A stretch of 44,923 bases of DNA from a virus, in the IMG/VR virus record IMGVR_UViG_3300031884_000931, positions 1 through 44,923 of that record; one strand, given 5' to 3'. Below the pieces are notes generated by a model. That model saw nothing but the letters and a program-made list of their open reading frames with translations. It made no database searches and was not told the origin of the DNA. A program made the translations under genes and the position numbers. Of this stretch, positions 17,049-44,923 are shown in pieces; position 1 is the stretch's first letter; the number at the start of each line of letters is the position of its first letter.

Positions 17049-17050
17049 GG

Positions 17051-17090: not shown

Positions 17091-17109
17091 GAAATTAAAG
17101 GAGCGTTAA

Positions 17110-17391: not shown

Positions 17392-17432
17392 ACCGTTGTT
17401 TTTAGACTACAGACCAACAAATCAGTTTAATG

Positions 17433-17449: not shown

Positions 17450-17468
17450 AAAAATTTAGGAGCATTTA

Positions 17469-28700: not shown

Positions 28701-28777
28701 GCATCCTCAAGGCTAGTCGCAGGTTGTTCAAAAGCAAACAAGCCCGGTTTTGGTCCACAATAAAAAACATCAAACAT
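25736..28777 (-). CDS. Nine-repeat protein, glycosyltransferase-like segments, 1013 aa
   Basis: A long protein made of two related repeat types. Five short units of about 42 residues (cores 113-155, 178-220, 243-285, 308-352, 377-415) share FDYSWxPDP, PPYIYVFGNQW and PGATExK. Four longer units (2-78, 433-527, 563-656, 786-893) share a strand ending FWIV.S, an acidic/aromatic FDFxWxPEPWQ and a following HVFPS. The longer units resemble nucleotide-sugar-binding glycosyltransferase halves; I infer glycan binding or transfer. No signal peptide. It lies on the minus strand directly opposite a plus-strand glycosyltransferase-like gene. The family is not one I can name. Confidence 0.7.
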   Translation of the reverse strand: MFDVFYCGPKPGLFAFEQPATSLEDAASKSRTTYYWYIYGLNDYTGFDFDYVPVPWQSQFIHVWPNQYQPNGEVYLAQKTNSGEFHFHSEQGVHRLPDPTYWNIPNTVDPASIDWRWCPDPADPPYNYVFGNQWHPGTIDPTATYCIPGATESKFVHDFVVTVKPNMERWEILDDITGFDYSWKPDPTEPPYIYVFGNQWLTPEQRPALQYRVAGATQYKYLDEPKATRMDHPGKFKTHYLCEFDYSWEPDPGSPPYNYVFGNQWYPGEVMPTVEYPMIGATETKFMDIPARLLEKHDNHWHTLVDCEFDYSWLPDPGDTPYIYVFGNQWYPAEVMPTVEYTVPGATERKYMDVNPARLIADMSLWTVPEEIDQTNIDFTWCPHPNDEPYIHHFGSDYQISTGLMYTVPGATEPKFESEPPKLEKEKTAVTALDIFFIDKNNATAQTRFELLKQKYPKIHKVRYANNIMDTISRCVTRAKTNKFWIVSSEYNYTNFDFAWHAEPWQTYMTHVFPSQHQKWSDTFLINKFEFNRHTKWATTLEQFPNLNFVTDQTVSKPDNLHNIYYVDHGNPTSRHQYEYLRTQHPDIVMTRFVDNYLDTFKRIMTTAETEYVWIVNSVCDYTQFDFTWQPEPWQKEMIHVFPSGMEDRGDTFYIHVESFKKQMIELDLLDWFNVINYCHDQVVERFDAPVHYYDTDDLVTEIKNYKFETPYVTFTNQKDIQIVIAPCLWTKKDRVVQRLSRAGATCVVPRDIKADLKTQIYDYPFISDKKPILNDYFGSRKVGGLDIVYISNGEPDEERWYDHLCYQSNHWAKWVRGVNGRTAAYQEAARQSSTPWFFAVFAKLEVLGNQFPWYDWTPDYFQEPKHYIFNSRNPVNGLEYGHQGVICYNKRLVLENNNPGIDFTLSQPHESVPILSGIAHYNQSEWMTWRTAFREVVKLKHFMATDPTVETEHRLRVWSDENYLKHAEFAEWSVRGALDAIAYYDEVGGDYERLKLSFEWAWLEQRFNSSKR

Positions 28778-29927
28778 GTATAATATCCATAGTCATTACG
28801 AAAACATTTTCCTGCAATTAAAAAACATTGTAGCATATCGACGGCTAATTTACCTAACACCTTATGGTTCAACTCAACCAGAGAATGTAGAGCGCATATC
28901 CGACGATGTTCACCCATCGTTTGACCCATTTGATCCTGCTCAAACAGTATACAATAACCCAATGTTTATCTTCTACGACCAAGAACCAATTTATGGTGAA
29001 TATAATCACGGCTTGTTTGATTATATCCAAAACAACTATGCCGGCCCATTTGTTCTTGTTACGACCGAAAAAAATAGTGTACCATTAGATAAACTTAAAG
29101 AAAAATACAAATGGGAAACTGCCTACTACTTCCATCATGCATTTGCTGCACACGATTGGTTCCGCGGGTATCGCTATTGTGCCGACTTGGTAGCGCCGGC
29201 AGACCGTAAATTAACCAAAAAATATATTTCGTTTAATCGGTTAACCAGTAGCACACGAGTATATCGTACTATACTGATTAACGAACTATGCAAACGAGAT
29301 CTACTAGATCAAGGTTACGTTAGTTATAATGATGTATGTCCCGATGGTGGCACATATCAAGAAAACTTAGCACTGGCAGTTACCAACAAGTTAATTACGG
29401 CCGAACTTGCTACAGAAGCAGAAGCAAATATTGCAAATATATCATTGCCATTACGCATCGATTATCAAGACCAAGCATTTATTCCAAATCATAGTTTTGT
29501 ATTAAGTGCAGTAAAAGAAACCCAAGAAAGTTTTTGCTACTTGGTAACTGAAACCTGCTACTGGGAAAGTAAACACCATCTAACAGAAAAAATATTTAAA
29601 CCTATTATAAGTAAAATGCCTTTTGTATTAGTAGGGCCTGCACATAATTTAAAATACCTACGTGAGTATGGATTTAAAACATTTGATAAGTGGATCGACG
29701 AAAGTTATGACGATATAGAAGATCCCATTGAGCGCATGACTGCAATTGGTAATACTATGAATAAGATCTGTGCATATAGCTTAGAAGAATTGCAGGACAT
29801 GTTAATTGATATGCAAGAAGTACTAGATCACAATTATAATAGATTTTATAGTAACGAATTCTTAGATGACTGTTGGAACGAACTAGTTACTAATCTTAAA
29901 AATGCTATGCCTGAATATCTTAGGTAG
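28776..29927 (+). CDS. Glycosyltransferase-like protein, 383 aa
   Basis: Not named with certainty, but the C-terminal half has the pattern found in exostosin/fucosyltransferase-like sugar-transfer proteins: CYWESKHHLTEKIFKPII, then MPFVLVGPAHNLKYLREYG and FKTFDKWIDESYD. The same order occurs in the minus-strand protein at 37955-38968. No membrane segment. Its start codon overlaps the divergent repeat-protein start by two bases (CATG), and neither shows a ribosome site. The 3' end overlaps the APS-kinase-like gene by eight bases. Confidence 0.7.
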   Translation: MYNIHSHYENIFLQLKNIVAYRRLIYLTPYGSTQPENVERISDDVHPSFDPFDPAQTVYNNPMFIFYDQEPIYGEYNHGLFDYIQNNYAGPFVLVTTEKNSVPLDKLKEKYKWETAYYFHHAFAAHDWFRGYRYCADLVAPADRKLTKKYISFNRLTSSTRVYRTILINELCKRDLLDQGYVSYNDVCPDGGTYQENLALAVTNKLITAELATEAEANIANISLPLRIDYQDQAFIPNHSFVLSAVKETQESFCYLVTETCYWESKHHLTEKIFKPIISKMPFVLVGPAHNLKYLREYGFKTFDKWIDESYDDIEDPIERMTAIGNTMNKICAYSLEELQDMLIDMQEVLDHNYNRFYSNEFLDDCWNELVTNLKNAMPEYLR

Positions 29928-30543
29928 TTTTTCCAAATTTAATTTTATTCCATACACGCTCGTGGGCCCAGTACAAGAACATCTTGGTAAATACTTCCGT
30001 TCCGCCAATGGCCACAGCCAGTTTAACTTCGCCAGTAATTAACCAACTAAGCACAAAGGTATCAAACGTTCCAAGAGTACGCCAACTTATGGCTTTTACT
30101 ATACTGCGTAAATTGCTATCACTAGGTGCTTGTGTTAAGTCTGCGGCAATTGCTCGAACCCATTTATCAGACCAATCAGTTACGTGGTAAGTAGCACTAG
30201 TAGGTTTAACAAATACCTTGTTGGTATCTTCAAATCGACCTGCTTCAATTGTGTCCATCCAGATTAAAATATCTGCTTTAAATATTTTTCTCAGTTCTTC
30301 TGTAGGGCACACAAAGTCACATATAGCAAAGTCTGCATTGGATTCATCTGCTAACTTACTCATACGCTCAACTTGTCGTGTTCTTCCTTCTACACTAAAG
30401 TCCCAGTCGTTAAATTGTTCACGTACTGTATCTGCATTAAACCACGCAACTGTGTGGTTAAGCATCAACTTCTTAACTAGTTCTTGACTCAGTGTAGTTT
30501 TACCAGAGCCCGGTAGTCCCATCACAAGTATTTTTTTTGTCAT
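29920..30543 (-). CDS. APS-kinase-like P-loop domain fused to DUF2061, 207 aa
   Basis: N-terminal half is a CysC-like kinase: Walker A MGLPGSGKTTLSQ, then WFNADTVREQFNDWDFS and the Arg-rich GRTRQVERM helix. C-terminal half (about 145-207) matches DUF2061: SIVKAISWRTLGTFDTFVLS and GEVKLAVAIGGTEVF, two hydrophobic helices, then YWAHERVWNKI. The protein is therefore probably membrane-bound. Phosphorylation of a sugar, nucleotide or APS-like substrate is likely. Last gene of the long minus-strand operon. Confidence 0.8.
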   Translation of the reverse strand: MTKKILVMGLPGSGKTTLSQELVKKLMLNHTVAWFNADTVREQFNDWDFSVEGRTRQVERMSKLADESNADFAICDFVCPTEELRKIFKADILIWMDTIEAGRFEDTNKVFVKPTSATYHVTDWSDKWVRAIAADLTQAPSDSNLRSIVKAISWRTLGTFDTFVLSWLITGEVKLAVAIGGTEVFTKMFLYWAHERVWNKIKFGKTT

Positions 30544-30899
30544 TTGAGGCCCATCGACTTTCTAATATCGGTTGCTGAGATTGCGTGGGTATCTTCGTCG
30601 AATACTTCGTTTTCAATTTTATAACCAACATTACGACCATAAGTGATATTTGTAATGTTAGGAACAAATAAAATGCAATACTGTCCGTCATATTTTTCCT
30701 TTAAGTTTGCGTGTATAAAGTTTTCTACTTCTTCTTTTTTAAAAGGATTACTGTCATTCCATCCTTCACAGTCTCGAATCATAATACACACTTGTCCAGT
30801 TTTAGCAACGGCACGATCAAATAGCGCACGATGGCCTGCATGCCATGGTTGCCACCTCCCGAGTAGCATAGTTGTTGGTGCCTTCCAATCAAAACTCAT
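30540..30899 (-). CDS. Cytidylyltransferase-like nucleotidyltransferase, 119 aa
   Basis: Small HxGH-type nucleotidyltransferase: GRWQPWHAGHRALFDRA (H-x-G-H site in the first 25 residues) and the closing AISATDIRKSMG (the ISxTxIR motif). 119 aa is near the minimum for the fold. Couples ATP or CTP to a phosphate-bearing substrate. Overlaps the kinase-like gene by four bases, so it may use that product to make an activated donor. Confidence 0.82.
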   Translation of the reverse strand: MSFDWKAPTTMLLGRWQPWHAGHRALFDRAVAKTGQVCIMIRDCEGWNDSNPFKKEEVENFIHANLKEKYDGQYCILFVPNITNITYGRNVGYKIENEVFDEDTHAISATDIRKSMGLK

Positions 30900-31510: not shown

Positions 31511-31543
31511 ATCTTTTCTCCTGCATAGATATTTATCATTCTG

Positions 31544-31583
31544 TGCCATTAACCTAACATTTATGCCATTAACCTAACATTTA
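31544..31583 (+). repeat. Two exact 20-base tandem copies
   Basis: TGCCATTAACCTAACATTTA occupies 31544-31563 and again 31564-31583. The second copy contains the stop codon of the carbamoyltransferase gene. Direct duplications of this size beside a homing endonuclease may be scars of its insertion. Confidence 0.95.
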
Positions 31584-33071
31584 GGAATGTACTCTTACTC
31601 CATAATGTTTTTCAAATGCTTCAGCATCTGCACGGGTGTTTACTAATGGCTCGCCTTTGATGTTTAAGCTAGTGTTAAGTAACATAGGACAGCCTGTTAC
31701 CACATACCACTTTTCTAGTAGTTCGCGGATTCCCGAACCATCTTTTGGTACTGTCTGTATACGACTAGTCCCATCATAATGAACGATAGCAGGAAATAAG
31801 TCAGGATACCGACAAGTACCGATGACTTGCATATACCTAGTATTAACGAAGCTACGAGGCATATTAAAATAATCATTAACATGCTCCTCCAAAATAATTG
31901 GGGCGAAAGGTCTAAATTCTTGTCGTTTTTTAATTGCATTTACTCGATCCTTTATATCGGGTCCTCTTGGGTCGGCAAGGAGACTTCGGTTGCCGAGAGC
32001 TCTGGGTCCAAATTCTGCTCTTCCGGAAGCAACTCCAGTGATTTTATCGCTGAGTAAACTATCAAGGACGGCATTGACAGGGTACGGTCCGCTAATGTCT
32101 GTACCAAGAAATGCGTCTTTAAACTCAACTCGTCCGCCGTAAGCAAGCGCGGCTGCACCAAGGCTACTACCAGCATCGCCAGGATTAGGCATGATCCAAA
32201 TTTTTTCAAAATACTCACCGAGGTTTCTATTAGCTAAACAGTTAAGGGCAACACCGCCCATGTAACACAAGTTCGTGCTCCAGTTAAAATCCTTTGCACG
32301 ACGCATTACATTATATATCAAATTCTCACATAAATCCTGTGCAGAACTGGCAACGTCTTTGTCGTCAAAATGTCTGCCCCACTCGTAATTGGATCCGGTA
32401 TGTAAGTTTTCTCTGAATATCACTTCATTCTCATCGGCCACTAACCGCATCTTCATCCAGGCGCTTGCTACCCGACTACCATATGCGCTCATGCCCATTA
32501 AGATGTATTCATCTTCGTTGGGCTTTAGTCCTGCTTCTTGTGTCATTGCACTATAAAATAGCCCAATGCTATGCGGATATTTTTGCTTCCACAACACTTT
32601 ATATGTTGCACGACCATCAACATACTCTGCACCAATAATACTGATAGTGTCCCATTCACCTATAGCATCAATAACAACCACTGTAGCACGATCAAATGGG
32701 CTTGTTTGGAATCCTGCGGCCGCGTGACTTAAATGATGATTGCAAGTAATAACAGGAACCTTGTGTGTTAGCATTGAGTGTAGTTGATCCTGCACAATCC
32801 GACGAGCACTTAGTTTATTCCATTCAAAGCCTTGCCCGCTGTATAATTGTCGTAGTTGTTTCTTCCAGGGAGTTTCGTAGTAGGCAATCGATTCAATATC
32901 GTTATAACTACAGTAGCCGCGGATATCTACAATAAGTCCTGTGTCAATGTTGGGATCGTTCTTGATTCTGCTGTAGCGTTCTGAATGCCCAGCAAATAAG
33001 ATTTCACCTTGATTGTTTAATACTGTAGCGGCAGCATCATGGAAGCCAGCCGAGATTCCTAATATGTTCAT
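31581..33071 (-). CDS. NodU/CmcH-type carbamoyltransferase, 496 aa
   Basis: Transfers a carbamoyl group from carbamoyl phosphate/ATP to a hydroxyl, usually on a sugar or polyketide. N-terminal ISAGFHDAAATVL and HHLSHAAAGF (His112, 113, 116; metal and adenylate site), then MGGVALNC, NPGDAGSSLGAA and the C-terminal GRAEFGPRALGNRSLLADP, FRPFAPII and LNTSLNIKGEPLV. Size is close to the family norm of 500-600. The 3' half partly overlaps the SGNH-like gene upstream (33037-33071). Confidence 0.92.
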   Translation of the reverse strand: MNILGISAGFHDAAATVLNNQGEILFAGHSERYSRIKNDPNIDTGLIVDIRGYCSYNDIESIAYYETPWKKQLRQLYSGQGFEWNKLSARRIVQDQLHSMLTHKVPVITCNHHLSHAAAGFQTSPFDRATVVVIDAIGEWDTISIIGAEYVDGRATYKVLWKQKYPHSIGLFYSAMTQEAGLKPNEDEYILMGMSAYGSRVASAWMKMRLVADENEVIFRENLHTGSNYEWGRHFDDKDVASSAQDLCENLIYNVMRRAKDFNWSTNLCYMGGVALNCLANRNLGEYFEKIWIMPNPGDAGSSLGAAALAYGGRVEFKDAFLGTDISGPYPVNAVLDSLLSDKITGVASGRAEFGPRALGNRSLLADPRGPDIKDRVNAIKKRQEFRPFAPIILEEHVNDYFNMPRSFVNTRYMQVIGTCRYPDLFPAIVHYDGTSRIQTVPKDGSGIRELLEKWYVVTGCPMLLNTSLNIKGEPLVNTRADAEAFEKHYGVRVHS

Positions 33072-33663
33072 TGATTTTTTCTGCTATTCGTTCGTGTCCT
33101 AATTCTAGAGGATGACCGCCTGGACCTTTGGGACAATCGCCCTGAAACTCTAACATGCCATTAATTGGCCAACCTACATAATTTTCAACTTTATATTTGT
33201 CCCACAAGAACAAAAAATCATCTTTGTATAATTCAAAGTGACCTTGCAATCCTGCAACATTTACAAATAAATACGGTTGATTGATACTAATTAGATATTG
33301 TTGTAATACTAATACCTGCGTAAACCATGTGCGAAAACTAAACTTTTCATCATAGCTGTACTTGTAATATGCTGGTACCCACGGTATACCGCGACGGCCA
33401 TTGTGATTAATACAAATAGGCATACCGTTAGTCCACGTTTCAATTCTGCTAGTATCGCTCCACCCAATGATAACTAAATCAAACTTTTGTTTAGCAGTTT
33501 CTTCGATTACTGTGCGAACTATATATTGATTACTACCAGCACCTTTACCTAAGTTTAATACTTCATTGCTTAATAATCGAGACAATACATACGGCCATGC
33601 ATCCAAAGTTCTGTTAGTCAGTTCTTCACCATATGTAAAACTATCGCCTACTGTTAAGATCAT
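33037..33663 (-). CDS. SGNH/GDSL hydrolase-like protein, 208 aa
   Basis: GDS block TVGDSFTYGEEL (Ser8), then GxxN-like LGKGAGSN with a strand LVIIGWSDTSR and the C-terminal GGHPLELGHERIAEKI (D/G-H pair). Similar to the 4.4-kb, 33.7-kb and 36.7-kb proteins. Without a signal peptide it probably acts inside the cell on an acylated intermediate. Overlaps both neighbours, so it is embedded in the operon. Confidence 0.72.
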   Translation of the reverse strand: MILTVGDSFTYGEELTNRTLDAWPYVLSRLLSNEVLNLGKGAGSNQYIVRTVIEETAKQKFDLVIIGWSDTSRIETWTNGMPICINHNGRRGIPWVPAYYKYSYDEKFSFRTWFTQVLVLQQYLISINQPYLFVNVAGLQGHFELYKDDFLFLWDKYKVENYVGWPINGMLEFQGDCPKGPGGHPLELGHERIAEKINEHIRNLGWLP

Positions 33664-33761
33664 TTGTAGATAAAAGGATCTCTTTTACGCAACTCTTTTA
33701 ATTTCTTGCGATAGCTTATTTCTAACTTAATTCTGTTGTATATGCTTTTTAACCAATTCAT
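33660..33761 (-). CDS. Basic small peptide, 33 aa
   Basis: Minus-strand reading MNWLKSIYNRIKLEISYRK followed by a Lys/Arg/Glu run, ending RDPFIYK. GGAGAA lies seven bases before ATG, and its stop overlaps the SGNH start as ATGA, so it looks translated. It overlaps the end of the next gene by 35 bases in another frame. Amphipathic and very basic; whether it is an enzyme partner or a substrate cannot be told. Confidence 0.5.
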   Translation of the reverse strand: MNWLKSIYNRIKLEISYRKKLKELRKRDPFIYK

Positions 33762-34326
33762 TGAATTTCTCCTGCATCAATTTGGATGCGTCTATATGTG
33801 CTTGTTCTAAGGGGTGATCTTGCGGACCTACATCGTATTTATTCTCTACTGCCCACTGGTAAAAACCTCTTGGATCCATAGTTTCGTGCGGCATAATACC
33901 AGCCGGAAACATAAACCAATGTTCAAAATCTGAATTAGTTACTTTGTCTAATAGTGTTGGGTACGCACAGTTATCTGCACAAGTAAACATAAACGGTATG
34001 CCATGCTTCTGCAGATAAAACTGTAACCCAAAGATTTCGTCTATGGCATCAATCTTGTTATCACGACTAGGCCAAGTCCAGCATACAATAACAAATAACT
34101 CTCCTAGTAACAAAGGGTAATGTTCTCTCACGTTATCACAATAACCCTTAACCGATTCAACAATACCCTTATTACTCATCCCGGGATATGCAACACATAC
34201 GTATTCGTTATCTTCAGCTAACAAGGCAGTAAAGGTATTGCGACTGTAGCTTGTTTGTCTGCCGTCGGGTGAATCTGTTAATTCACTACCGAATATAAAG
34301 CTATCCCCGGCGCCTACTATAATCAT
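33727..34326 (-). CDS. SGNH/GDSL hydrolase-like protein, 199 aa
   Basis: GDS block VGAGDSFIFGSEL (Ser9), then VAYPGMSNKG, a VIVCWTWPSRDNK strand, and DHPLEQAHIDASKLM (the C-terminal D-H pair). Tail is Lys-rich (LVKKHIQQN). Sister of 33037-33663. ATGA overlap with the unknown gene behind it. Confidence 0.72.
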   Translation of the reverse strand: MIIVGAGDSFIFGSELTDSPDGRQTSYSRNTFTALLAEDNEYVCVAYPGMSNKGIVESVKGYCDNVREHYPLLLGELFVIVCWTWPSRDNKIDAIDEIFGLQFYLQKHGIPFMFTCADNCAYPTLLDKVTNSDFEHWFMFPAGIMPHETMDPRGFYQWAVENKYDVGPQDHPLEQAHIDASKLMQEKFNELVKKHIQQN

Positions 34327-35405
34327 CTGTTTTTGTAAATTATTTTAACTTGTTGATCTGTGTAATTTTTGTCTGACCAGTTATAGTTATACGTTGCTTT
34401 ACTATCGCTAGTTTCAATGCTGTACACGTTTAAGTGATTGCCCAGCAATGCCCATATATCTCGGTAGTCGGCAGAATTAAAGCTACGTGCTAAGTCTACT
34501 TGCCCAACCTGCGGATGACCAATGGTTAATGTTTTATCATCGGGATCAAATTTATTTGCAATTAACCATTCTTTAAATTCTGTTAGTTTTGTTTGTTGCC
34601 AATGGTATTCACCGGGATTGTTTGCCCATTCTATATCAAAGTCTCCAGCAGCTTCTGTCTGCCCACGTAAGGTAGTGGTTGTAAGTTCACCTATGCGACT
34701 ATCTCTACCTTCGTCTTGGAATACTTCATAATGATGTTTTCCTACCGCTTTGTTTACCCCAACAAACACACCGCCTAATGGTCTATTGATTGTATCTATA
34801 CCAAATAGTTCGTAATCTTCTTCGTCGAGCACAAAACGTGGTGCGTGTAACCAACACATTAGTTGACTAGGCCTGCGCCATTCGGGTGCGTGTACTGCCT
34901 TACGCATACTAAGCACAAGACTTTCGTATTCGTGGCATAATAAGTTTAGTTGACGTATATGCCAACGTATAGTGTTATCTGCTTTATCGTAAAAAGGAGA
35001 CATACTTCCACTAACACCTTGTAGATCTTCAAAATATCTATGTAACCGGTTTAACTTGTCATGTACTAGTGTTCCGCCCAAGGATTCCTCAGTGATCTCC
35101 CCAGGAACAATAGTATTGTCCACACTAAAGTAATCATCGATTTGATAGCCAAGCCCAGCTAGATTAATAGCAGATATACTATGGTTTACTTGATTCATTA
35201 TATACCCTGCGTTGCGAGTACTTTCAGTAAATCCTAAAAAGCAATAATTCTTTTCTAGATGATAGTTATTTTTAATTAGTTCGTTTAGTGCAGTAAGCCA
35301 TTTACGACTTAGACTGTTGTTGTGGACGTTGATATATACAGGTAGTAAATCGCCCGAGCGATCATCCTTTAATATCATTGTTATTTGATCAATTAATTGA
35401 GTCAT
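34323..35405 (-). CDS. Hypothetical protein in the radical-SAM operon, 360 aa
   Basis: Not recognised. ATG 35405 (MTQLIDQITMILKDDRS) is preferred over TTG 35414; no strong ribosome site is visible for either. Residues 60-130 read GYIMNQVNHSISAINLAGLG and then DNTIVPGEITEESLGG; the middle has RWHIRQLNLLCHEYESLV with HYEVFQDEGRDSRIGEL. No signal or membrane segment. Always within the operon between an SGNH and a twitch radical-SAM gene, so it may be their substrate or partner. Confidence 0.65.
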   Translation of the reverse strand: MTQLIDQITMILKDDRSGDLLPVYINVHNNSLSRKWLTALNELIKNNYHLEKNYCFLGFTESTRNAGYIMNQVNHSISAINLAGLGYQIDDYFSVDNTIVPGEITEESLGGTLVHDKLNRLHRYFEDLQGVSGSMSPFYDKADNTIRWHIRQLNLLCHEYESLVLSMRKAVHAPEWRRPSQLMCWLHAPRFVLDEEDYELFGIDTINRPLGGVFVGVNKAVGKHHYEVFQDEGRDSRIGELTTTTLRGQTEAAGDFDIEWANNPGEYHWQQTKLTEFKEWLIANKFDPDDKTLTIGHPQVGQVDLARSFNSADYRDIWALLGNHLNVYSIETSDSKATYNYNWSDKNYTDQQVKIIYKNR

Positions 35406-36681
35406 ACCATTCAAGTGCTTCGGGTCTTTCAGACATTATATCTCTAAAAGTATACACATCTTTTCGAATTTTTTCAAGTTCTAATACACGGGCTTTGCCC
35501 TTTTTGAGTCCTGCTTGGTATTCGTTGGGCCAGTGTTCGGCAAAAGTGGGTCTTGTTTTAAGTTGAACAAGTATGTCGTGTAGAGCACCTTTATCAATGG
35601 TGTGCAAGATTTCGTCTACCCAAGGATGTAATACGTCCCTAGGTAGTGCCAGCGGTGACATAATGATGTCCGGACTAAACGAGAACACCACTTTTGCTAA
35701 AACATCTACTCCGAGTTCTTGCGCGAGTTCTTGTATCTTTTGTACTTCAAAGAGTCCTGGTGTAGTAAGAGTGAAGTCCAAACGGACCTGGCGGCGGTGA
35801 GTGCTGTATGCAAGTCCTTCGCGGATGTTCTCAAGCCATGAAGTAAAATCAAGACCTGATCTAATATACTCTCCAATTCTGCCTGTACCATCGATGCTTG
35901 CACAGATTTGCCAGTCACGTAGCCCAGATAAAATATCCCTATACAGATTGATACCGCGATAATTGATGTGACTAAGATTTGTGTTATATCTAGCATAAAC
36001 ATTTTTTCCATCTCCAAGTTCTATAATCCGTTTCATGTAGCGCCAGTGTTGCTCGTACATTAGCGGCTCACCTCCCACCCAATACACCTCTTCCACTCGG
36101 TGTTCCTCAACAGCAGTAGCAAACTCTTGCTCTACCTGGGTGTCTTGAAACTTTTCAATTTCTACCTTGACTTCAGGACGCATCCAATTATTTTTTGGAT
36201 TTGTTAAGTCGATCATCCCGTGTTGCTTCTGCTCACTCTCCCAAGCACTTGACAACATGTCACCGCACATGCGGCATTTAAAATTACAAAGATTGCTAAA
36301 TCTGTAATCCCACGATACTGGTTTCATTGTCGTGTAGCCTGTCACATCAGTATGTTCCATAGCTTGTAAGTACTTATGACCAAACAGTTGGTTAAAATAA
36401 CTACGGTAAACGTCTGTGTTTAATAGCTTGTCATTACATACTTCGCACTCGGGTAAGGTTTCCCCGGCCATCATACGCTGACGTACCGATTTCATGTGGT
36501 CGCTGTTCCAATGTTCATCCAGAGTAATTGGTATATATCGGCCAGTGCCTGCCTTTGTATCTATGTACTGTTCAAAGTTTTGTGCTGGTTCGCGACTTGC
36601 ACAACACATACGACGTTCAGTCTGAGGACTTAGGTAAGTGTGTACCCACGGTGCCATGCATAGTGTTTCTGGTTTATTCAT
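35389..36681 (-). CDS. Twitch-domain radical-SAM protein, 430 aa
   Basis: N-terminal twitch (SPASM-like) half with Cys8, the CC pair 26-27 (TERRMCCAS), and C79-x2-C82. Radical-SAM core: LCNFKCRMCG (Cys132, 136, 139), then YWVGGEPLM and ARYNTNLSHINYRG. This cluster-first, SAM-second layout is the 'twitch radical SAM' type known from large phages and bacteria. The reaction is unknown. Overlaps its neighbours by 17 and 8 bases. Confidence 0.85.
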   Translation of the reverse strand: MNKPETLCMAPWVHTYLSPQTERRMCCASREPAQNFEQYIDTKAGTGRYIPITLDEHWNSDHMKSVRQRMMAGETLPECEVCNDKLLNTDVYRSYFNQLFGHKYLQAMEHTDVTGYTTMKPVSWDYRFSNLCNFKCRMCGDMLSSAWESEQKQHGMIDLTNPKNNWMRPEVKVEIEKFQDTQVEQEFATAVEEHRVEEVYWVGGEPLMYEQHWRYMKRIIELGDGKNVYARYNTNLSHINYRGINLYRDILSGLRDWQICASIDGTGRIGEYIRSGLDFTSWLENIREGLAYSTHRRQVRLDFTLTTPGLFEVQKIQELAQELGVDVLAKVVFSFSPDIIMSPLALPRDVLHPWVDEILHTIDKGALHDILVQLKTRPTFAEHWPNEYQAGLKKGKARVLELEKIRKDVYTFRDIMSERPEALEWYDSIN

Positions 36682-37291
36682 TAATGCGTTCTATTAGATT
36701 AGTATAGTATTCGGCTATCATAGTATGAGTTGCCAATTCTGTAATGTGGTAAAAAGGCCTAAATGTCTTTGTAACTGGATAGTCCCACAAGTTAATGTCG
36801 GCTATAAAATTTTGATACTGTTCAAAGTATTGAGCGCCAGCATTAGCAAATGATTTATGCTCAAATCCACCTTGATCAAATTTAAATGGAATATTGCTGT
36901 TGATTAATTTTTGTAAAGTATTTTCAATAATACACTTACTTTGGTATATAGATACTTCCAAGTCAAAAAACTCTGACACATAGTTGCGTAATAATTTCCG
37001 TTGTGGCATACTAAACTGTGTAGTATCATCTATAGAATGAATAGAGTATGATACTATTGTATTATTAAATCGTACCTCTTGTCTAGTACAACTTGTACCT
37101 AAACAGATAATGTAATCCGGGTCGTTTGCAATCGCTTGATCGACCTGCATAGAAATTAATAAGTTACTCGAACACACCCTGGCCAAATTAGTAATGTTAA
37201 ACTGGTTAGATAACATGTCAACCCAGCAAGGACCGTATTCTGGATCGCTTACTGCAAAACTATCACCACATATATAGACAGACTTAGACAT
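36674..37291 (-). CDS. SGNH/GDSL-like protein, 205 aa
   Basis: Starts MSKSVYICGDSFAVSDPEYG with the GDS block (Ser11). DYIICLGTSCTRQEVR is the strand with a possible oxyanion residue, and HITELATHTMIAEYY is a candidate terminal His block, though less canonical than its relatives. ATG 37291 is preferred over a TTG further up. Divergent in sequence from the other SGNH-like proteins here, so the assignment is weaker. Confidence 0.62.
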   Translation of the reverse strand: MSKSVYICGDSFAVSDPEYGPCWVDMLSNQFNITNLARVCSSNLLISMQVDQAIANDPDYIICLGTSCTRQEVRFNNTIVSYSIHSIDDTTQFSMPQRKLLRNYVSEFFDLEVSIYQSKCIIENTLQKLINSNIPFKFDQGGFEHKSFANAGAQYFEQYQNFIADINLWDYPVTKTFRPFYHITELATHTMIAEYYTNLIERINE

Positions 37292-37958
37292 GTAGATACT
37301 GCTCAATTGAATTAAAGATTTGATCTTTGGTGTACAAATACGGAGTCAATAGCGTAATGTTTTCTACCCGACTGTATGTTAAATTTAAGCTGGGGAAAAA
37401 TTTATCAACAATTTCTCTATTGGCAATTGGTTCCGATACTAAATTTTGTTCTCGTGTGCCGGAGTTGATCATGTTACTAATATCAAATTCTATGTTGGTT
37501 AAATCGTACCATTGTAGCGTATAATCTAGATTTATTTTATCGGTGTACACGTTATGCTTGAGATCATACAACGGGTTCTTTTTAAGGTCCTTGTGTATCA
37601 ATGAACTTAATCTTGGTATATACGAATTAAAATTGGATTTAACAAATTCCTCTAACCATAGTCTATTTTTACCGTAAGGTAAATTGGGACGCAAGATACT
37701 ATCTACTGTACCGATCAATATTACTGTGCCAATTTCTGTAGCTTTTAGTGCAGTAGCGAGATTCTGAATATTAACAAGATCAGCATTGGCATCAGCATTG
37801 GCCACTAGCCTGTTGCCTGTTGGGGCTGCTATATACACTTTATCAAATTTATAATCGGAAATCTGATTAATATTACTTGAATTAAACTCATGTGTATACG
37901 GAATTGTCTCTTTGAGATATCCGCCAATTAATCCATGTGTGCCAATGATTGCATTCAT
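37284..37958 (-). CDS. NAD(P)-binding Rossmann protein, RmlD-like, 224 aa
   Basis: Starts AIIGTHGLIGGYLKET (glycine-rich dinucleotide loop) followed by VYIAAPTGNR and a strand GTVILIGTVDS. PYGKNRLWLEEF puts Tyr-x3-Arg where SDRs have Tyr-x3-Lys, so the catalytic Lys may be missing or shifted. Shorter than dTDP-4-dehydrorhamnose reductases (about 290). Likely acts on a nucleotide sugar. Confidence 0.72.
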   Translation of the reverse strand: MNAIIGTHGLIGGYLKETIPYTHEFNSSNINQISDYKFDKVYIAAPTGNRLVANADANADLVNIQNLATALKATEIGTVILIGTVDSILRPNLPYGKNRLWLEEFVKSNFNSYIPRLSSLIHKDLKKNPLYDLKHNVYTDKINLDYTLQWYDLTNIEFDISNMINSGTREQNLVSEPIANREIVDKFFPSLNLTYSRVENITLLTPYLYTKDQIFNSIEQYLHV

Positions 37959-38968
37959 AGGGTATTTATAAACTCCAAAATAGGATCTAATATTTCTTTT
38001 TGTATTATGCCTGAGATAAATGTTTCACTATATAAATGATTAAAATTGTGCTCAATTATCTCTGCAGATAGACTATCCCCAAATAATGAAACGCTATTGC
38101 CCGAATCTGCGTATTCTCTATATAACTTATATAACTCTGCTACTACTTCTGTTACCGCAGTTATTCTTGATGTACCGTGATATGTTGAGCTGTAATAATA
38201 CGATTTGTCGATAAATTTCTTTTCTATTGTAACATCACTCGGGATAGTGTCATACGATTCATTTATTTTGTGACTAAATGTTGCAAATCCTAATTTTTTA
38301 AATCTATCCAGTATTCCGGTGTGCCCTAGTATAATCATTGGATGTTTGTATGCAAAAGGTTTAATACTTTTTTCACTTATAAACTCGTCGTCTTCCATGG
38401 TTGTTTCTGCTACTAAACTAAATTGTGTAGTAGAATACCAAGATTGATTTACGTAGGTTTGCCATTCGCCACTGGCATTATTGTATGCAATATCGTCGGG
38501 AATAAACACATTGCGAGATGCATAGCTTATCAATGAAGATGCATGATACTGTTTTATATTATCATATAATTGTGTTCTATGATCTCTTTCGGCATTCATA
38601 AGACATAACATAAACTTGGTCGGCTTTGTTGGAATAGGTATTATAGTATTGTTATCTCTTAATAGACTTTGATTGGCAATTATCCAATTTGGGGATTTTA
38701 AATTTAACACATTGTTGGTGGTTACTGGCGTACCAGAATGATCCCACAGATAATCATGAACTAGTTTGTATCCGTCATCAACTAAATCTTGATACCAATT
38801 TGATTCTTTCCACCACGCCCATAATACATAATCAACTTTGTTGTAGGTAGCAGTTACGTCATATGGTTCTATATTAAAATAGTCAAGCAAGTACGGATGC
38901 CACTTTTTGTTACAAACAAGAGATTGTAATCCAGTTACTGGATGATACAGAATTGTTTTTTTATTCAT
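37955..38968 (-). CDS. Glycosyltransferase-like protein, 337 aa
   Basis: Shares its C-terminal pattern with the plus-strand gene at 28776-29927: SLVAETTMEDDEFISEKSIK, then FAYKHPMIILG and FKKLGFATFSHKINESYD. The N-terminus begins with ILYHPVTGLQSLVCNKKWHP. Overlaps its neighbours by ATGA/8 bases. A sugar-transfer role is inferred from the pattern and the company of epimerase, aminotransferase and carbamoyltransferase genes. Confidence 0.68.
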   Translation of the reverse strand: MNKKTILYHPVTGLQSLVCNKKWHPYLLDYFNIEPYDVTATYNKVDYVLWAWWKESNWYQDLVDDGYKLVHDYLWDHSGTPVTTNNVLNLKSPNWIIANQSLLRDNNTIIPIPTKPTKFMLCLMNAERDHRTQLYDNIKQYHASSLISYASRNVFIPDDIAYNNASGEWQTYVNQSWYSTTQFSLVAETTMEDDEFISEKSIKPFAYKHPMIILGHTGILDRFKKLGFATFSHKINESYDTIPSDVTIEKKFIDKSYYYSSTYHGTSRITAVTEVVAELYKLYREYADSGNSVSLFGDSLSAEIIEHNFNHLYSETFISGIIQKEILDPILEFINTL

Positions 38969-40175
38969 ATCCCATAGCTCGAGCTATTTCAGGATGTGTA
39001 TCTGTAAAACATTGTTTGCGATGGGCATCTGTACGTTGCATTTTAAATAAGAACTCACTGCCGTCGCTACCTGTACCATTTTCAATAAACTTAATTACAT
39101 TGTTTATTTCTTGTTGATACTTGGCAGACGACCAGAAGGTTGTTTTCAGTTTGTTTAATACCAACTCCTGCGCGGTAGGAGTCATTTTTTGTATGCTCAT
39201 ATGATCTGGGCTGTGCATCATATTGAAGTAAATACTACCAAACGGTTTGGTATCTGCCCAAGCAAGTAGTTCATCTAGGTAATAAACGTTCTGTATGTTA
39301 ATAGTAAAGCATAACTGTGTAGTAATGTTTGGAGTATCTATACGGCGAGCTAGATGCACATCGTCAATAATTTTATTTGCTAGATCCCATTTAGCGCCAT
39401 AACGTTCGTACTCGAATCTTTTGCCCACGTTGTCGATACTAAATGCAATATCTACTCGTCCAAATTGATTCCATATCTGTGTGTTATCACTTAGCTCTTG
39501 TGTAGCATTAGTGTTGTAATGAATATCAATATGTTTACTATGTCCCATGGCTGCTGCATATTTTAATAAATCAAAATGTTCTTGTATCATCCATGGCTCA
39601 CCGCCGGTGAATTCAAAGTACTTGATGTTGGGCAACAGGTCTCGCATGTTATCCCAGAACGTTTCGGTCTTGCGCGGCCATGCTCCCGACTTTAACCAAG
39701 TATAAGCAATATGTTCTTTCTTATTGAAGTCCTTGGGCATATATGCAAGTTCTTCTGCGGCCCAGGTACTACTAGACCATGACCCACATATACGACATGC
39801 AAGATTACAAATATTACCTAGCTTTAAATCAACAAACCATAGTTGATCTGGGTCGTCGTTTTGCCAGTCAACTTGCTTGTATAGTTCTTTGAGTCTGACT
39901 TGACTGTGTATACGTTTACTATCACGGCCTGCATCTTCTTCTTCCCAACAACGACTACATGTTGCTGGTTTTTCACCTCGCCGGAATTGACGGCGAAGGT
40001 CTTGCATATACTCACTATGGTATGCAACTTCTAAGTTTGTTTCTTTGAGATCGTACTTTTTTCCGTTCTCATCTGTGATTTCATCGTGCGCCATACAACA
40101 AGGGCGTGTTGTTCCCATCGGGCTTGTTTCAATACTAACCCAGGGTAGCATACAGATTGTTTTTGGTAGTGTCAT
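38961..40175 (-). CDS. Twitch-domain radical-SAM protein, 404 aa
   Basis: Twitch half: Cys8, CC 26-27 (TTRPCCMAH), C73-x2-C76. Core: ICNLACRICGS (Cys123, 127, 130), FEFTGGEPWMI, HYNTNATQEL and later VDIAFSIDNVG. The core is followed by a helical C-terminal part. Close relative of 35389-36681 in layout but well diverged. Four-base overlaps on both sides. Confidence 0.86.
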   Translation of the reverse strand: MTLPKTICMLPWVSIETSPMGTTRPCCMAHDEITDENGKKYDLKETNLEVAYHSEYMQDLRRQFRRGEKPATCSRCWEEEDAGRDSKRIHSQVRLKELYKQVDWQNDDPDQLWFVDLKLGNICNLACRICGSWSSSTWAAEELAYMPKDFNKKEHIAYTWLKSGAWPRKTETFWDNMRDLLPNIKYFEFTGGEPWMIQEHFDLLKYAAAMGHSKHIDIHYNTNATQELSDNTQIWNQFGRVDIAFSIDNVGKRFEYERYGAKWDLANKIIDDVHLARRIDTPNITTQLCFTINIQNVYYLDELLAWADTKPFGSIYFNMMHSPDHMSIQKMTPTAQELVLNKLKTTFWSSAKYQQEINNVIKFIENGTGSDGSEFLFKMQRTDAHRKQCFTDTHPEIARAMGYE

Positions 40176-41170
40176 TCTTTAATTCCGCATTGTTCGTTAC
40201 AGGCAAATATTTTGCCTTCCGGCACACTTAGTTGCCATGTTGTTTCTATCTTATTAAACCATTTAATAGCATCTTCGATGCTGTATTCTAAAGCATTATT
40301 GTTTGATATCAATGGTTGTAATTGTGCATTACTAGATCTTCTAGTACTGTTAAGCGGATAAAATCCCAACCAGCAACAGGGATATACTTCTCCGTTAGCA
40401 CTTACATAAATTTCTTTATTCTTTATTGAGTAACAATCTATACGTCTATTACTTTTTTCATTACGGACTGCACCGCCGGGGTCTGTGAGATATGTGTGAC
40501 TATCATCCCATAATTCATCAAAGTCTGTTTTACCTTGATAGTTACCAACTATATGACTTAACCTTTTGTCTGAAGTAAACACAGGGAACGAGTTTCTTCC
40601 GTTATCCACTAACCAAAAGTTTTCAAATCCTAGTTGCTTACTCAACTCACGGCACTCTTCAACTTGATGTTGATTATGATCAAATACTATCATTGCCCAG
40701 GTTGCACGGCCGCCTGCTGTGATAAACTTAGTTGCGTTATCTATTATAAACTGCCAATCGGTATTTTGTCTATACAAATGATGTGTGTCAACAAGTCCAT
40801 CAATTCTAAAATCAATTTTAACTTGAGATAGTTGCCCTAGCTTGGCCCATATATTAGGTTTTGCGCTGCCATTGGTGCTGATTTCTATTTCAATATCAGG
40901 ATTAGCATCAATAAAATATTCAACAATGGCTAACCCATCACTTGCAGTAACAAAGTCACCGTGATTGCCATTTATCAATAGTTTGTTTAACTGACGAATA
41001 AAGGCCACAGAGAAAATCTTCTTTACCTGTTCTAACTTCATATCACATAAAGGATACGTGCCTTCTATTACATCAACTCCACGAAAATTACGAGGACAAT
41101 CTGGACAGGCAGCATTACATCGTGTGCTTATTTCTAAATGCACTTGCTGTATATCTTTATACTCAATCAT
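40172..41170 (-). CDS. Radical-SAM/SPASM protein, 332 aa
   Basis: Canonical CX3CX2C at STRCNAACPDCPRN (Cys18, 22, 25), then NGNHGDF (the GGEP site is degenerate), ISTNGSAKPNIW, and RIDGLVDTHHLYR. The C-terminal SPASM-like part has YVSANGEVYPCCWLGFYP and FACNEQCG. This is the only one in the operon with the radical-SAM core first. The absence of a clear GGEP is unusual. Confidence 0.85.
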   Translation of the reverse strand: MIEYKDIQQVHLEISTRCNAACPDCPRNFRGVDVIEGTYPLCDMKLEQVKKIFSVAFIRQLNKLLINGNHGDFVTASDGLAIVEYFIDANPDIEIEISTNGSAKPNIWAKLGQLSQVKIDFRIDGLVDTHHLYRQNTDWQFIIDNATKFITAGGRATWAMIVFDHNQHQVEECRELSKQLGFENFWLVDNGRNSFPVFTSDKRLSHIVGNYQGKTDFDELWDDSHTYLTDPGGAVRNEKSNRRIDCYSIKNKEIYVSANGEVYPCCWLGFYPLNSTRRSSNAQLQPLISNNNALEYSIEDAIKWFNKIETTWQLSVPEGKIFACNEQCGIKE

Positions 41171-42495
41171 TGCAATTCTTTAAACTCTGGAAATAAGTCC
41201 CAGAAACTTTCTTTTCGTAATTCATCTAATACACGTGTTTCTTCTACAAAACGTGGCCAGTGTTCCGTAGCATGATTGTCTTTCATTAGACTTAACAAAC
41301 TCTGATACCCAGTGGTTGCTCTACGTAACGTATCCTGTGGATCTAGCCAGGCAATATGTTCTTCATATGCAGGATAGATTACACGCTCTTTGAACTCCTG
41401 GGGAAATATATCACAACGATACCACTCGGGACTTTGGCAAATATTGATATTCCAATCCTTTGCTTGAATCAATCCCAACTTTGTCCATTCTTTGTGAAAG
41501 TCTAATACATGCATTATGTTCATGGAGCTAACTGTGGAGCTAACATAAAAGTCCACGTGCGGGACTTCCTTCATCATGCGTTCGCGGTTCTCTATTGTTT
41601 GCTTCCAGTCTGCACCCTTGCGTATTAATTCTGCTTGTGGGCCCATGCCATCTAAACTAGCACCAACACTTACGTTTTTAAAGTGTTTCCAGTATTCAAA
41701 TACGTGTTTATCTTTATAGCGCATTTCGCTAAAGTTTGTATTGTACTGTAAACGAATATCTGTTTTACCTGCGTCAATTAGCTTCTCTAGCAAGTAATAA
41801 TGCTCTTTCATAATCAGCGGCTCGCCACCAGCAAAGTACACTTGCTCTAGGTGGGGGATATGTTCTTCCATTTGTTCAAGCATGCCATCTTCTGTTCCTG
41901 TAGCATATTCCACTCGTGCCATGTCGCGACCAAGAACATCGGGTACACGCTTGTATAACTTAACATGATCGTTGTACCAGTTACTGCTGAAAATAGGACC
42001 GCAGGAACGGCAGCGGAAATTGCAGAGATTGCTAAAACGCACATCCCAATAACGAATCTTGAATTCTTCATGTGTGCCATCATCTTTGGTGTCCTTTATC
42101 TCTTTGATCATATGCCCGTAGTTACGGTTAGCATCGTTACGCATACTAAACGCACCGTGCTTCTCTTGCTCGTAGCACTTGGTACATTCAACACAAGGTT
42201 TATCCTGTAGCATATTGCTACGCATAGTCTTGTACTTGTCTTGATTCCATACTTCCTTCATTGTATTCTTACGCAGGTCTCCGACAGGGTGCCAGTAGTC
42301 TGCTAAACAGCAAGGATACACCCGACCATCCGGAAAGGCATGCATGTGCATCCATGGTAACATACAGAATGTGTCACTGTGTGTTAGTTTACGATATTCG
42401 TCTTCTGTTAATTCACTGCGTTCAATGAAATACGGAGCACGTGCATTATAGTCGTACCCTTTATCGTAAAATCCTGCTACTGTATTGTCTGTCAT
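41167..42495 (-). CDS. Twitch-domain radical-SAM protein, 442 aa
   Basis: ATG 42495 gives an ATGA overlap with the gene behind it and is preferred over a TTG at 42510. Twitch half: Cys44, CC 62-63 (RVYPCCLAD), C104-x2-C107 (preceded by C101). Core: LCNFRCRSCG (Cys158, 162, 165), YFAGGEPLI, LQYNTNFSEM. C-terminus is acidic/aromatic (WDLFPEFKELQ), as in the sister 43828 gene. Confidence 0.86.
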   Translation of the reverse strand: MTDNTVAGFYDKGYDYNARAPYFIERSELTEDEYRKLTHSDTFCMLPWMHMHAFPDGRVYPCCLADYWHPVGDLRKNTMKEVWNQDKYKTMRSNMLQDKPCVECTKCYEQEKHGAFSMRNDANRNYGHMIKEIKDTKDDGTHEEFKIRYWDVRFSNLCNFRCRSCGPIFSSNWYNDHVKLYKRVPDVLGRDMARVEYATGTEDGMLEQMEEHIPHLEQVYFAGGEPLIMKEHYYLLEKLIDAGKTDIRLQYNTNFSEMRYKDKHVFEYWKHFKNVSVGASLDGMGPQAELIRKGADWKQTIENRERMMKEVPHVDFYVSSTVSSMNIMHVLDFHKEWTKLGLIQAKDWNINICQSPEWYRCDIFPQEFKERVIYPAYEEHIAWLDPQDTLRRATTGYQSLLSLMKDNHATEHWPRFVEETRVLDELRKESFWDLFPEFKELQ

Positions 42496-43841
42496 ATTGA
42501 ATTGTACCAATTGGCTAATATAGGAAATGTGTCTGCAAAGTTCTTACCGCGACGCTGATCATATTGTATGTAAAATTGTTTAAAGTCTTGCTGTAGTACT
42601 GATTGTTCTGCTGCGCCCATGTGCGGTGTTTTAACCACATCAAGATAATCAATCAAGCGTTGCAATTGATTGCGTTCAAACTCGTGAAGCATAGGATCAT
42701 TGCAATTGGTATCGAGCCAATCTTGCAAACGAATTTTAAAGTGTGTACGAATATTATCTGGAAGAACTAATGGACTTTGAAAACTTGGAAAGCGTAATAT
42801 ATTTAGCGAAAATGTAGGGAAGTCTTTTCCATATTCGCGTTTCCAGTTCATCATGCATTCCAGGAAACTATCCAATGAATCTAAACACAATGCATTAATT
42901 GTACACATCACATGAAACCCACGCAATTTACCCGACGTCATTAATTTCTCAGCATTGTTTGCCCAATCATCAAATACTAGGCCATCACGTATATATTCTG
43001 CTTGCAGATTCATTGCTTCGTTACTGGTGTAAAGATCAAATACTACTCCATCAATGCTTGCTAGTAACCGATCAACATCAACATCTGTGCCTAAGTTACT
43101 GTTAAATGCCAAGCGTGTATTACTCTTACCCTTGTTGGTCTTAAACCAATCTAATAGCTTCCATGTATCACCGGACATGAGCGGTTCGCCGCCAGTGACA
43201 CGTAGTTCTTTTAATGTTTTGTGCAGGTCGGTTTCCCACCATTTGTGGAACGCTTCAACATACGGATTAACTTCTCCAAAGCGGTATAACTGACTGCTAT
43301 CATGTATGTGAGTAAAGTGATTACGACCGTCGCTAGTAAGATTAGTATAAGGACCATTCTGCTTGATATCTTTAACCCAAGTACTACTAAACGCCGGATT
43401 ACAGTAAGAGCAAGCAAACTGGCAGGTGCGGTCAAAGGCAATTTCAAGTGTTTGCAAATCCACGTCTGCATTGCTATCCAAGTTGAACGCATCATCTAAA
43501 TCCTTGTCTTCGTATATAACTGTTTTGTAAACACGATCACTAATGTTATCGCGGCCAATGTCTTCTATCTTCCAGCAGTACTCGCAACCTGCAGGGCGTT
43601 CGCCTTTTTGCATCATTGCACGTTCAGATTTCTTCTTAGCTGTGTTATGTAATGCTTTAGGATTTGCTTGAACATCTGCTATACTAACTTGGTGCGGTAA
43701 GGGATGATGACAACTAGTAGTCTGCCCTGATCCCAGCCATATAGTAGCGTTGTACCATTTGGCGCCACAGAAGCTTTCTGACTTGATGTCAATTACTCTG
43801 CGCTTGTATTCAAAATCTGTTTCGTTATTAATTCTGGGCAT
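42492..43841 (-). CDS. Twitch-domain radical-SAM protein with altered Cys pair, 449 aa
   Basis: Twitch half has Cys25, a single Cys44 followed by His-His where its relatives have Cys-Cys (TTSCHHPLP), and C86-x2-C89. Core: RTCQFACSYCNPAFSSTW (Cys140, 144, 147), LRVTGGEPLMS and LAFNSNLGT. The Cys-to-His swap could change the auxiliary cluster ligands. Overlaps the gene behind it by 14 bases. Confidence 0.85.
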   Translation of the reverse strand: MPRINNETDFEYKRRVIDIKSESFCGAKWYNATIWLGSGQTTSCHHPLPHQVSIADVQANPKALHNTAKKKSERAMMQKGERPAGCEYCWKIEDIGRDNISDRVYKTVIYEDKDLDDAFNLDSNADVDLQTLEIAFDRTCQFACSYCNPAFSSTWVKDIKQNGPYTNLTSDGRNHFTHIHDSSQLYRFGEVNPYVEAFHKWWETDLHKTLKELRVTGGEPLMSGDTWKLLDWFKTNKGKSNTRLAFNSNLGTDVDVDRLLASIDGVVFDLYTSNEAMNLQAEYIRDGLVFDDWANNAEKLMTSGKLRGFHVMCTINALCLDSLDSFLECMMNWKREYGKDFPTFSLNILRFPSFQSPLVLPDNIRTHFKIRLQDWLDTNCNDPMLHEFERNQLQRLIDYLDVVKTPHMGAAEQSVLQQDFKQFYIQYDQRRGKNFADTFPILANWYNSI

Positions 43842-44923
43842 GGTATTTACATTCGTTCCAAAACTCTTTCATTTCAGGAAAGGTTTCTAAAAAATTAGTC
43901 TTGCGACGTTTATCGTGTTCATTAAAGAAACGATAAAAATCTGCTCTTTGTAGTTTAACATAGTTTGGGTCTAAATTACGACCTTCTCGCATCCAGTCTA
44001 TGTCACGACGCATACGTTGTACTTCGTAATCTTTAAATCCTTGGAATGGTTTATCTGCGGTTTCTAAATTGAGTTCCATCCAGTCTGCTACACGCTCTAG
44101 TACACCTACATATACTTCAGGTAGTATCTGTATACTTTGCCATGTAGGTGTGCGTAGTAAGGGAGTATCGAACCAGACACGCTGATATGTTGTACTGTGT
44201 GTTCTACGTAGACTTAGTATATAATCTAGCTGACGTTGTATTCCTAATACACTTAAATTATTCATTGTAATAATAAATGTCAAACTATTGCGATATGGAA
44301 TTTCTGTTAAGAAACGTTCTACGTTGTCGACCACACGATTTGCATTCATCCCGTGCCTGATATATTCGGCATGTGCAGGAATTCCGGAATCCAAACTAAC
44401 AAACTGCATGAAGTGTTCAATTTGGGTATTACAAAGTTGCTTAACGTAACCTAAGTACTTCTCCATTAATGCTGGCTCCACACTAAAGTTACTGGTTACG
44501 TTTAAGTGTAGTTCGGGATTGGGTAATGCTAATACATAGTCAAATACTTTGTATGTATTCTTATCCATTAGCGGTTCACCACCGGTCATACGGAAATGTT
44601 TTAGTTTTGGGTACAGCTCGGGCCACCACTGCCAAAATGCATCAACATAGGGATTGGTGTCGCGACTAGGTATAGGACGGTTACGACCAGTAAAGTGACT
44701 GCTATCGTTATGAATAGTGCTTGTAGGATATCCTCCCCACTTATCAACTTCTGCTTGCCAAGTTGAACTAAACTGCGGGCTACAGTAACTACAAGACAAA
44801 TTGCAAGCGTGGTTAAAATTAACTTCCACATAACTAGGAATAACGTCATTTTCTTCTCCGGTACTGTTTATGATTGCATCGTAATCACTTGCTGCCCAGG
44901 GCTCACCGGATCTATAATGACGA
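43828..44923 (-). CDS. Twitch-domain radical-SAM protein (5' end beyond window)
   Basis: The frame is open to the right edge; the region just inside it reads RSGEPWAASDYDAI and then a linker before NFNHACNLSCSYCSPQFSST with the CX3CX2C site, FRMTGGEPLM, VTSNFSVEP and FVSLDSGIPAHAEY. Because no start is visible, a GTG at 44829 is not the true start. Sister of 42492-43841; both share the SPQF/NPAF-SSTW stretch after the cluster. It is the most upstream visible gene of the minus-strand operon. Confidence 0.85.
   Translation of the reverse strand, partial: RHYRSGEPWAASDYDAIINSTGEENDVIPSYVEVNFNHACNLSCSYCSPQFSSTWQAEVDKWGGYPTSTIHNDSSHFTGRNRPIPSRDTNPYVDAFWQWWPELYPKLKHFRMTGGEPLMDKNTYKVFDYVLALPNPELHLNVTSNFSVEPALMEKYLGYVKQLCNTQIEHFMQFVSLDSGIPAHAEYIRHGMNANRVVDNVERFLTEIPYRNSLTFIITMNNLSVLGIQRQLDYILSLRRTHSTTYQRVWFDTPLLRTPTWQSIQILPEVYVGVLERVADWMELNLETADKPFQGFKDYEVQRMRRDIDWMREGRNLDPNYVKLQRADFYRFFNEHDKRRKTNFLETFPEMKEFWNECKYHAQN

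Follow-up and report, generated by a model that had tools for sequence, protein, structure and literature searches.

The linear IMG/VR virus record IMGVR_UViG_3300031884_000931, whose 44,923 bases are the window analyzed here, carries an island of 13 minus-strand genes that fills it from position 31581 to the right edge. With a probability of about one half, this island specifies a single conserved pathway for glycan tailoring in a lineage of large tailed phages, with a tail or tail-fibre protein of the phage as its likely acceptor. The set comprises five N-twitch radical S-adenosylmethionine (rSAM) enzymes, one SPASM-type rSAM protein, three SGNH-like proteins, a protein resembling short-chain dehydrogenases/reductases (SDR), a GT-B-type glycosyltransferase (GT), a NodU/TobZ-type carbamoyltransferase and an island-specific protein, Unk363. 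An original prediction for this DNA had listed these genes, and all 13 were found on the minus strand where it placed them. It had also described a gapless series of overlaps of 4-35 nt, which is present at every island junction except that between SGNH1 and SGNH2, where 63 nt intervene (33663 versus 33727). Promoter-like and terminator-like sites were at chance level in a scan, and the single transcript of the original prediction is an inference.

The case for one pathway rests on three features: a fixed gene order, gene fusions and confined insertions. Recurrence was followed in metagenomic records without known hosts. A scan seeded with SGNH1 returned 74 viral loci, most with the same gene row. 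In a set of 23 contigs, made up of 20 loci with 20 kb of extra upstream sequence and three whole contigs, p321, p104, GT272, GT285, p117, GTA298, rSAM_F, E, D, B and A, Unk363 and SGNH1 are present in every member, while CarbT occurs in 21 and SGNH2 in 20. Another 15 genomes that include upstream DNA repeat this order from the tail genes to Unk363, bringing the total to 38 contigs of up to 374 kb. Across these large-phage contigs the order tail fibre-p104-GT272-GT285-p117-GTA298-F-E-D-B-A-Unk363 is kept in all 37 that extend to the tail genes, with CarbT downstream in 36 of the 38. The longer, 15-gene order from a gp7-like protein to Unk363 is strict in 37, and the remaining contig ends inside the module. 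Within this order the blocks p104-GT272-GT285-p117-GTA298, E-D-B and A-Unk363 are nearly always contiguous, and insertions fall into four slots, namely GTA298^F, F^E, B^A and Unk363^CarbT. An independent scan seeded with Unk363 found at least 538 confirmed viral contigs; among 74 of them that were inspected, rSAM_A lies directly upstream in 73 and CarbT downstream in 70, and the canonical F-E-D-B-A order is kept in 61 of 68 Unk363-seeded contigs with enough sequence. The same arrangement therefore recurs in divergent contigs far beyond chance. Recurrence only as scattered single genes, an outcome that would have refuted the original prediction by its own terms, did not occur, and the fixed order rules that hypothesis out.

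At the center of the island are the five N-twitch rSAM enzymes, assigned to the family N_Twi_rSAM by the curated NF033640 cut-off of 170 bits. On the minus strand of the window these are rSAM_F (43828..44923, 221 bits), rSAM_E (42492..43841, 285 bits), rSAM_D (41167..42510, 405 bits), rSAM_B (38961..40175, 333 bits) and rSAM_A (35389..36681, 295 bits). The 5' end of rSAM_F lies beyond the window edge, and its full length of 461 aa is seen at 41715-43100 of the identical contig IMGVR_UViG_3300032561_000021 (G002). The sixth protein, rSPASM_C (40172..41170, minus strand), scores 32 bits and is not a family member. It matches PF04055 and PF13186 weakly, has a partial SPASM domain at its C-terminus and is accessory, being present in 5 of the 23 contigs; in the window it lies between D and B. 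The predicted count of five twitch-type proteins and one SPASM-type protein was thus correct. Two further SPASM-type genes of the rSPASM_C kind stand beside an SMC/SbcC-like gene at 1170-3058 of G002 (locus L078).

A tree of 129 sequences places A, B, D, E and F each in its own monophyletic clade, a single sequence from a metagenome-assembled genome (MAG) joining a phage clade, and by this phylogeny the five positions in the window are five distinct ortholog groups. The CX3CX2C core is intact in 109 of 109 orthologs and the N-terminal twitch cysteines in 108. D-B fusions, which join the two enzymes in a single frame of 840-870 aa, occur in at least four divergent lineages, and D and B probably act consecutively or as a complex. 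An F-E fusion suspected from open-frame length in another contig (G036) was dropped, as three stops lie between the domains. The most conserved island protein is rSAM_A, with a median identity of 75%; the medians of E and GTA298 are 69% each and that of CarbT is 66%, compared with 71% for thymidylate synthase, 39% for p321 and 34% for p117. A, E, GTA298 and CarbT are thus conserved about as strongly as thymidylate synthase. Each large record has between 7 and 17 N-twitch rSAM genes, and one viral contig of 155,922 bases (IMGVR_UViG_3300042402_001868, G062) has 19 N_Twi_rSAM matches. An A-type Fe-S carrier (PF01521), with one to three matches per record, was found in 9 of 11 island-bearing jumbo-phage records of 320-374 kb that were tested (G005, G008, G031, G053-G057 and G059). 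A viperin (pVip) or anti-phage defence function was also considered and rejected, the matches being partial and weak at about 20 bits against a cut-off of 180.

Several partner proteins point toward sugars. CarbT (31581..33071, minus strand; phrog_1601), the predicted carbamoyltransferase, passes the cut-offs of both of its Pfam domains by a wide margin, with 131 bits for Carbam_trans_N (PF02543) and 157 bits for Carbam_trans_C (PF16861) against 24 and 27. Its relatives in the PDB are GdmN, TobZ and a decarbamoylnovobiocin carbamoyltransferase. It shares with the NodU/TobZ/GdmN O-carbamoyltransferases their two-domain architecture and the motif GPRALGNRS, found in antibiotic and sugar carbamoyltransferases, and differs from them in being phage-encoded and within an rSAM island. 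The corresponding motif in an enzyme that carbamoylates 5-hydroxymethylcytosine (5hmC) is GPRALCNTT; the marker-residue positions of 5hmC enzymes are placed here on what we take to be their TobZ numbering. GT383, an associated gene at 28776..29927 on the plus strand, has a predicted model with a predicted local distance difference test (pLDDT) score of 88, whose top PDB matches are GT-B enzymes (E from 4.5e-4, template-modelling (TM) score 0.3-0.4), and this model identifies it as a GT-B glycosyltransferase. The glycosyltransferase-like island protein of the original prediction, GTlike337 (37955..38968, minus strand), is homologous to GT383 (E 2e-17), which bears out that assignment. The profile of GT285 matches glycogenin, a GT8 enzyme, weakly (E 0.005), and GT272 is homologous to GT285 (E 1e-9).

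Other predicted assignments stood in part. The Rossmann reductase-like protein, Red224 (37284..37958, minus strand), has orthologs that match SDR families weakly, one (L034) reaching E 0.0015 with NAD_binding_10, below the cut-off. SGNH1 (33037..33663, minus strand) exceeds the cut-off for DUF6071 (PF19547, E 1.6e-10), whereas its GDSL-family scores fall below theirs. SGNH2 (33727..34326, minus strand) is recognized by its GDS and HPLExAH motifs, and SGNH3 (36674..37306, minus strand; 2 of 23 contigs) by a GDSF motif only; orthologs of these two gave no GDSL-family match. SGNH1 and SGNH2 both carry the GDS motif of block I and the His motif of block V. GTlike337, Red224 and SGNH3 are accessory and all occupy slot B^A. 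A fourth SGNH-like protein, SGNH0, is encoded at 4367-5116 on the plus strand, distant from the island.

Unk363 (34323..35414, minus strand) has no match in the family libraries searched. Its predicted model is confident (pLDDT 85, predicted TM score 0.84) and appears to present a fold not in the PDB: no match reached E 0.001 there, and the query-normalized TM score was below 0.25 for all best-ranked matches. In a viral model library the model matches only uncharacterised phage proteins, including one of Agrobacterium phage Atu_ph07, while its sequence profile gave no match in Atu_ph07, K566 or KVP40. PDB profile searches with Unk363, GT383, GTA298 and rSAM_D produced nothing useful. The invariant residues of Unk363 include many Glu, His, Arg, Asp and Asn and are enzyme-like. 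It is probably an obligatory partner in the pathway, perhaps as an enzyme or as a carrier or scaffold.

The start of the island is seen in G002, which is 100% identical to the last 20 kb of the window and extends further upstream. The chain of overlapping genes runs on from rSAM_F through GTA298, p117, GT285 and GT272 to p104, so that the island begins with two GT8-like proteins (GT272 and GT285) and the GT-A-like GTA298. Directly upstream of p104 are the genes for a baseplate wedge protein, a gp7-like protein of 3433 aa and tail fibres. The isolate relatives of the wedge protein, at about 35% identity, are phages of the RaK2, PBECO4, BF, Munch, XaC1 and SCTP-2 type, which we take to form a group of roughly 350-kb phages. 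In all contigs examined, the island sits inside the tail module. Between the tail-fibre genes of G002, at 31375-33482 (locus L079), are asparagine-synthase-like and 2-oxoglutarate-Fe(II)-oxygenase-like proteins that few relatives share.

These elements can be arranged into a candidate pathway. A DegT/DnrJ-type sugar aminotransferase dependent on pyridoxal phosphate (24649..25755, plus strand; PF01041, E 1.5e-77) and an NAD-dependent epimerase/dehydratase (23681..24652, plus strand; PF01370, E 1.4e-41), both associated with the island, would help make an activated amino or deoxy sugar. A short glycan would be assembled by the two GT8-like proteins, GTA298 and the GT-B enzymes. On this glycan, or on the sugar itself, the five N-twitch enzymes, in the order F-E-D-B-A, would make successive radical changes; candidate reactions are dehydration, epimerisation, deoxygenation, or formation of C-C or C-N bonds. 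CarbT would carbamoylate a hydroxyl, the SGNH proteins would add or remove acyl groups, and the glycosyltransferases, SGNH proteins and epimerases that are swapped in the four slots may vary the outer part of the glycan. The original prediction's single pathway is well supported by the order, the D-B fusions and the slot-confined insertions. Its sugar-based product is supported by the GT-B, GT8-like and GT-A-like proteins and by the gene neighborhoods in Vibrio phage K566 and a Bdellovibrionales cluster; its suggestion of a polymer found no evidence.

Among the island proteins compared with 50,697 phage records, rSAM_E, Unk363, GTA298, GT285 and p321 have no match, and the matches of rSAM_D are confined to Vibrio phages, at about 22% identity, and one single-cell marine fragment. 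Three Vibrio phages, K566, KVP40 and QD01, resemble the island in having distant N-twitch-like rSAM genes, which in K566 alternate with GT8 and GT4 genes. In K566 and KVP40 these copies are few and divergent, and most of them score below the NF033640 cut-off; their order also differs, and Unk363 has no match there. Phage C48C1 was rejected as a relative: CarbT is all that it shares, and it matches NF033640 weakly (E 1.7e-6). In bacteria, a Bdellovibrionales chromosome cluster mixes N-twitch rSAM genes with CarbT-like, DegT-like and apparent glycosyltransferase genes and an ABC-2 permease, and a Bacteriovoracaceae MAG (L129, DIVA01000093.1) carries a chromosomal array of eight N-twitch rSAM genes at 6055-18051, near ObgE and ribosomal-protein genes. 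This array has members related to the phage enzymes E, A, B, D and F, and could be the source or a recipient of the phage set. The independent contexts in K566 and Bdellovibrionales favor glycan chemistry.

The choice of acceptor is less firm. The same pathway could act on the host surface, on the core or O-antigen of lipopolysaccharide (LPS), with late envelope remodelling that stops superinfection or re-adsorption of progeny. For the tail-fibre region of pelagimyophages, which is rich in glycosyltransferases, also gains radical-SAM cassettes and has GT8 proteins linked to LPS, such a role was proposed (PMC7029224). It would also suit the Bdellovibrionales relative, which sits in a surface-polysaccharide-like cluster with an ABC-2 exporter, and PagP of K566, encoded about 5 kb from the rSAM genes. 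However, 11 phage records, each 320-374 kb long, showed no Wzx or ABC-2 exporter, and this, together with the tail-module location in every contig examined, favors a virion protein and makes a host-surface acceptor rather unlikely. The original prediction had named both host surface and virion; the evidence leans to the latter. Peptide or protein modification is improbable. Here the rSAM enzymes would act on a tail protein or on the repeats of P1013, a repeat protein encoded beside the island, and the sugar enzymes would serve a separate function. Many SPASM and twitch rSAM enzymes modify peptides, and P1013 has a variable number of aromatic repeats. Yet P1013 was detected in 19 of the 23 contigs and its C-terminus is glycosyltransferase-like, the K566 relatives alternate with glycosyltransferases, and the overlapping core genes leave no intergenic room for the precursor gene of a ribosomally synthesized and post-translationally modified peptide, alternative-frame small open reading frames being outside this check.

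Hypermodification of phage DNA, by sugar, carbamoyl and radical chemistry on bases, is the least probable of the alternatives and fits the island poorly. A metavirome carbamoyltransferase of CarbT's Pfam family makes 5-carbamoyloxymethylcytosine in DNA (PMC8670742), T4 beta-glucosyltransferase is among the GT-B matches of the GT383 model, a ThyA gene lies downstream of the island, and the window holds QueE-like and QueD-like genes. CarbT shares its Pfam family and viral origin with this 5hmC carbamoyltransferase, but departs from it at the motif reported to mark DNA-modifying members (PMC8670742) and is without a dCMP hydroxymethylase partner. In 20 of 20 contigs, the residue of the neighboring ThyA at position 177, within the motif PFNIAS or PFNVAS, is Asn, which marks a true thymidylate synthase; a dCMP hydroxymethylase would have Asp177. 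The genes, moreover, lie in the tail module and not among replication genes. With both the ThyA and the CarbT motif misfitting, a role in DNA carbamoylation was dropped.

Several points weigh against a tail-directed glycan pathway. Shared descent of one phage lineage may be partly behind the conserved gene order. Unk363 lacks a functional clue, and to our knowledge no reaction, product or acceptor has been described for any N-twitch rSAM enzyme. The sole glycan-type neighbor of the Bacteriovoracaceae array is a putative sugar nucleotidyltransferase about 4 kb away. Modification of the LPS core is possible, as host flippases could serve. Finally, the T4-type late promoter TATAAATA shows no enrichment in a motif count and was dropped as a sign of late expression.

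Tail-linked phage glycan islands are a known kind, given the precedents in PMC7029224 and PMC5332604. Pelagimyophages carry radical-SAM cassettes and glycosyltransferases beside tail-fibre genes, for which O-chain modification was proposed (PMC7029224). These regions of pelagimyophages and cyanomyophages share their position and contents with the island; they are termed hypervariable, whereas the island keeps five orthologous rSAM enzymes, Unk363 and CarbT and varies at four slots (PMC7029224). A T4-like genome from TARA has 12 radical-SAM genes, reported as Fe-S metabolism (Nishimura 2017). Like the island phages, this large phage has both many rSAM genes and an Fe-S carrier of the A type; unlike the island, its description, in the section consulted, gives no ordered cassette, partner genes or pathway (PMC5332604). 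A paper on moraphages describes four core glycosyltransferases, and the word "radical" is absent from its text (PMC12619734). A literature search, with most subscription journals outside its scope, found no paper on a conserved five-enzyme core, its partners or its pathway, and this core appears new.

NF033640 itself, whose cut-off five island proteins pass with core and N-terminal cysteines intact, was named by sequence alone, and no described function or reaction and no fixed five-member set was found for it in the literature. The fixed set of five provides pathway-level context and a strong test case for the family. A bolder proposal, to be held tentatively, is that this undescribed multi-step pathway of five N-twitch enzymes, CarbT and Unk363, with its apparently phage-only fold, makes a new class of virion carbohydrate and is core to a large, uncultured jumbo-phage lineage seen in hundreds of metagenomic contigs. 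Were the product to sit on virions, phage tails would bear carbohydrates of a new chemistry, which would affect how hosts are recognized and how receptors or defences are evaded. The presence of as many as 19 N-twitch rSAM genes in these phages, and of their own Fe-S carriers, would then also be accounted for. Unk363 is, on the predicted model, a new fold to solve.

The remaining associated genes lie downstream of CarbT. NTase119 (30540..30899, minus strand; 11 of 23 contigs) is cytidylyltransferase-like, with PF01467 just below the cut-off (E 8.5e-4). The adjoining gene (29920..30543, minus strand; 21 of 23 contigs) encodes an adenosine 5'-phosphosulfate kinase-like protein (PF01583) with a DUF2061 membrane domain (PF09834). 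Between CarbT and NTase119, at 30896-31549 on the minus strand, is a GIY-YIG-like endonuclease gene, probably a recent insertion because it is confined to near-identical contigs. P1013 (25736..28777, minus strand; 1013 aa) has no Pfam or PHROG match and contains several copies of a motif like FDYSWxPDPxxPPYIYVFGNQW...GATExKF, in numbers that differ between phages; its C-terminus is homologous to the glycosyltransferase-like GTA298 (E 1e-14) but is without the DGD motif. The QueD-like (1128-1628) and QueE-like (2283-3146) genes, both on the plus strand, suggest that the phage may also make 7-deazaguanine derivatives. The block ThyA-Epim-DegT-P1013-GT383 downstream of the island stands inverted with respect to it in the 374-kb contig L015/G008.

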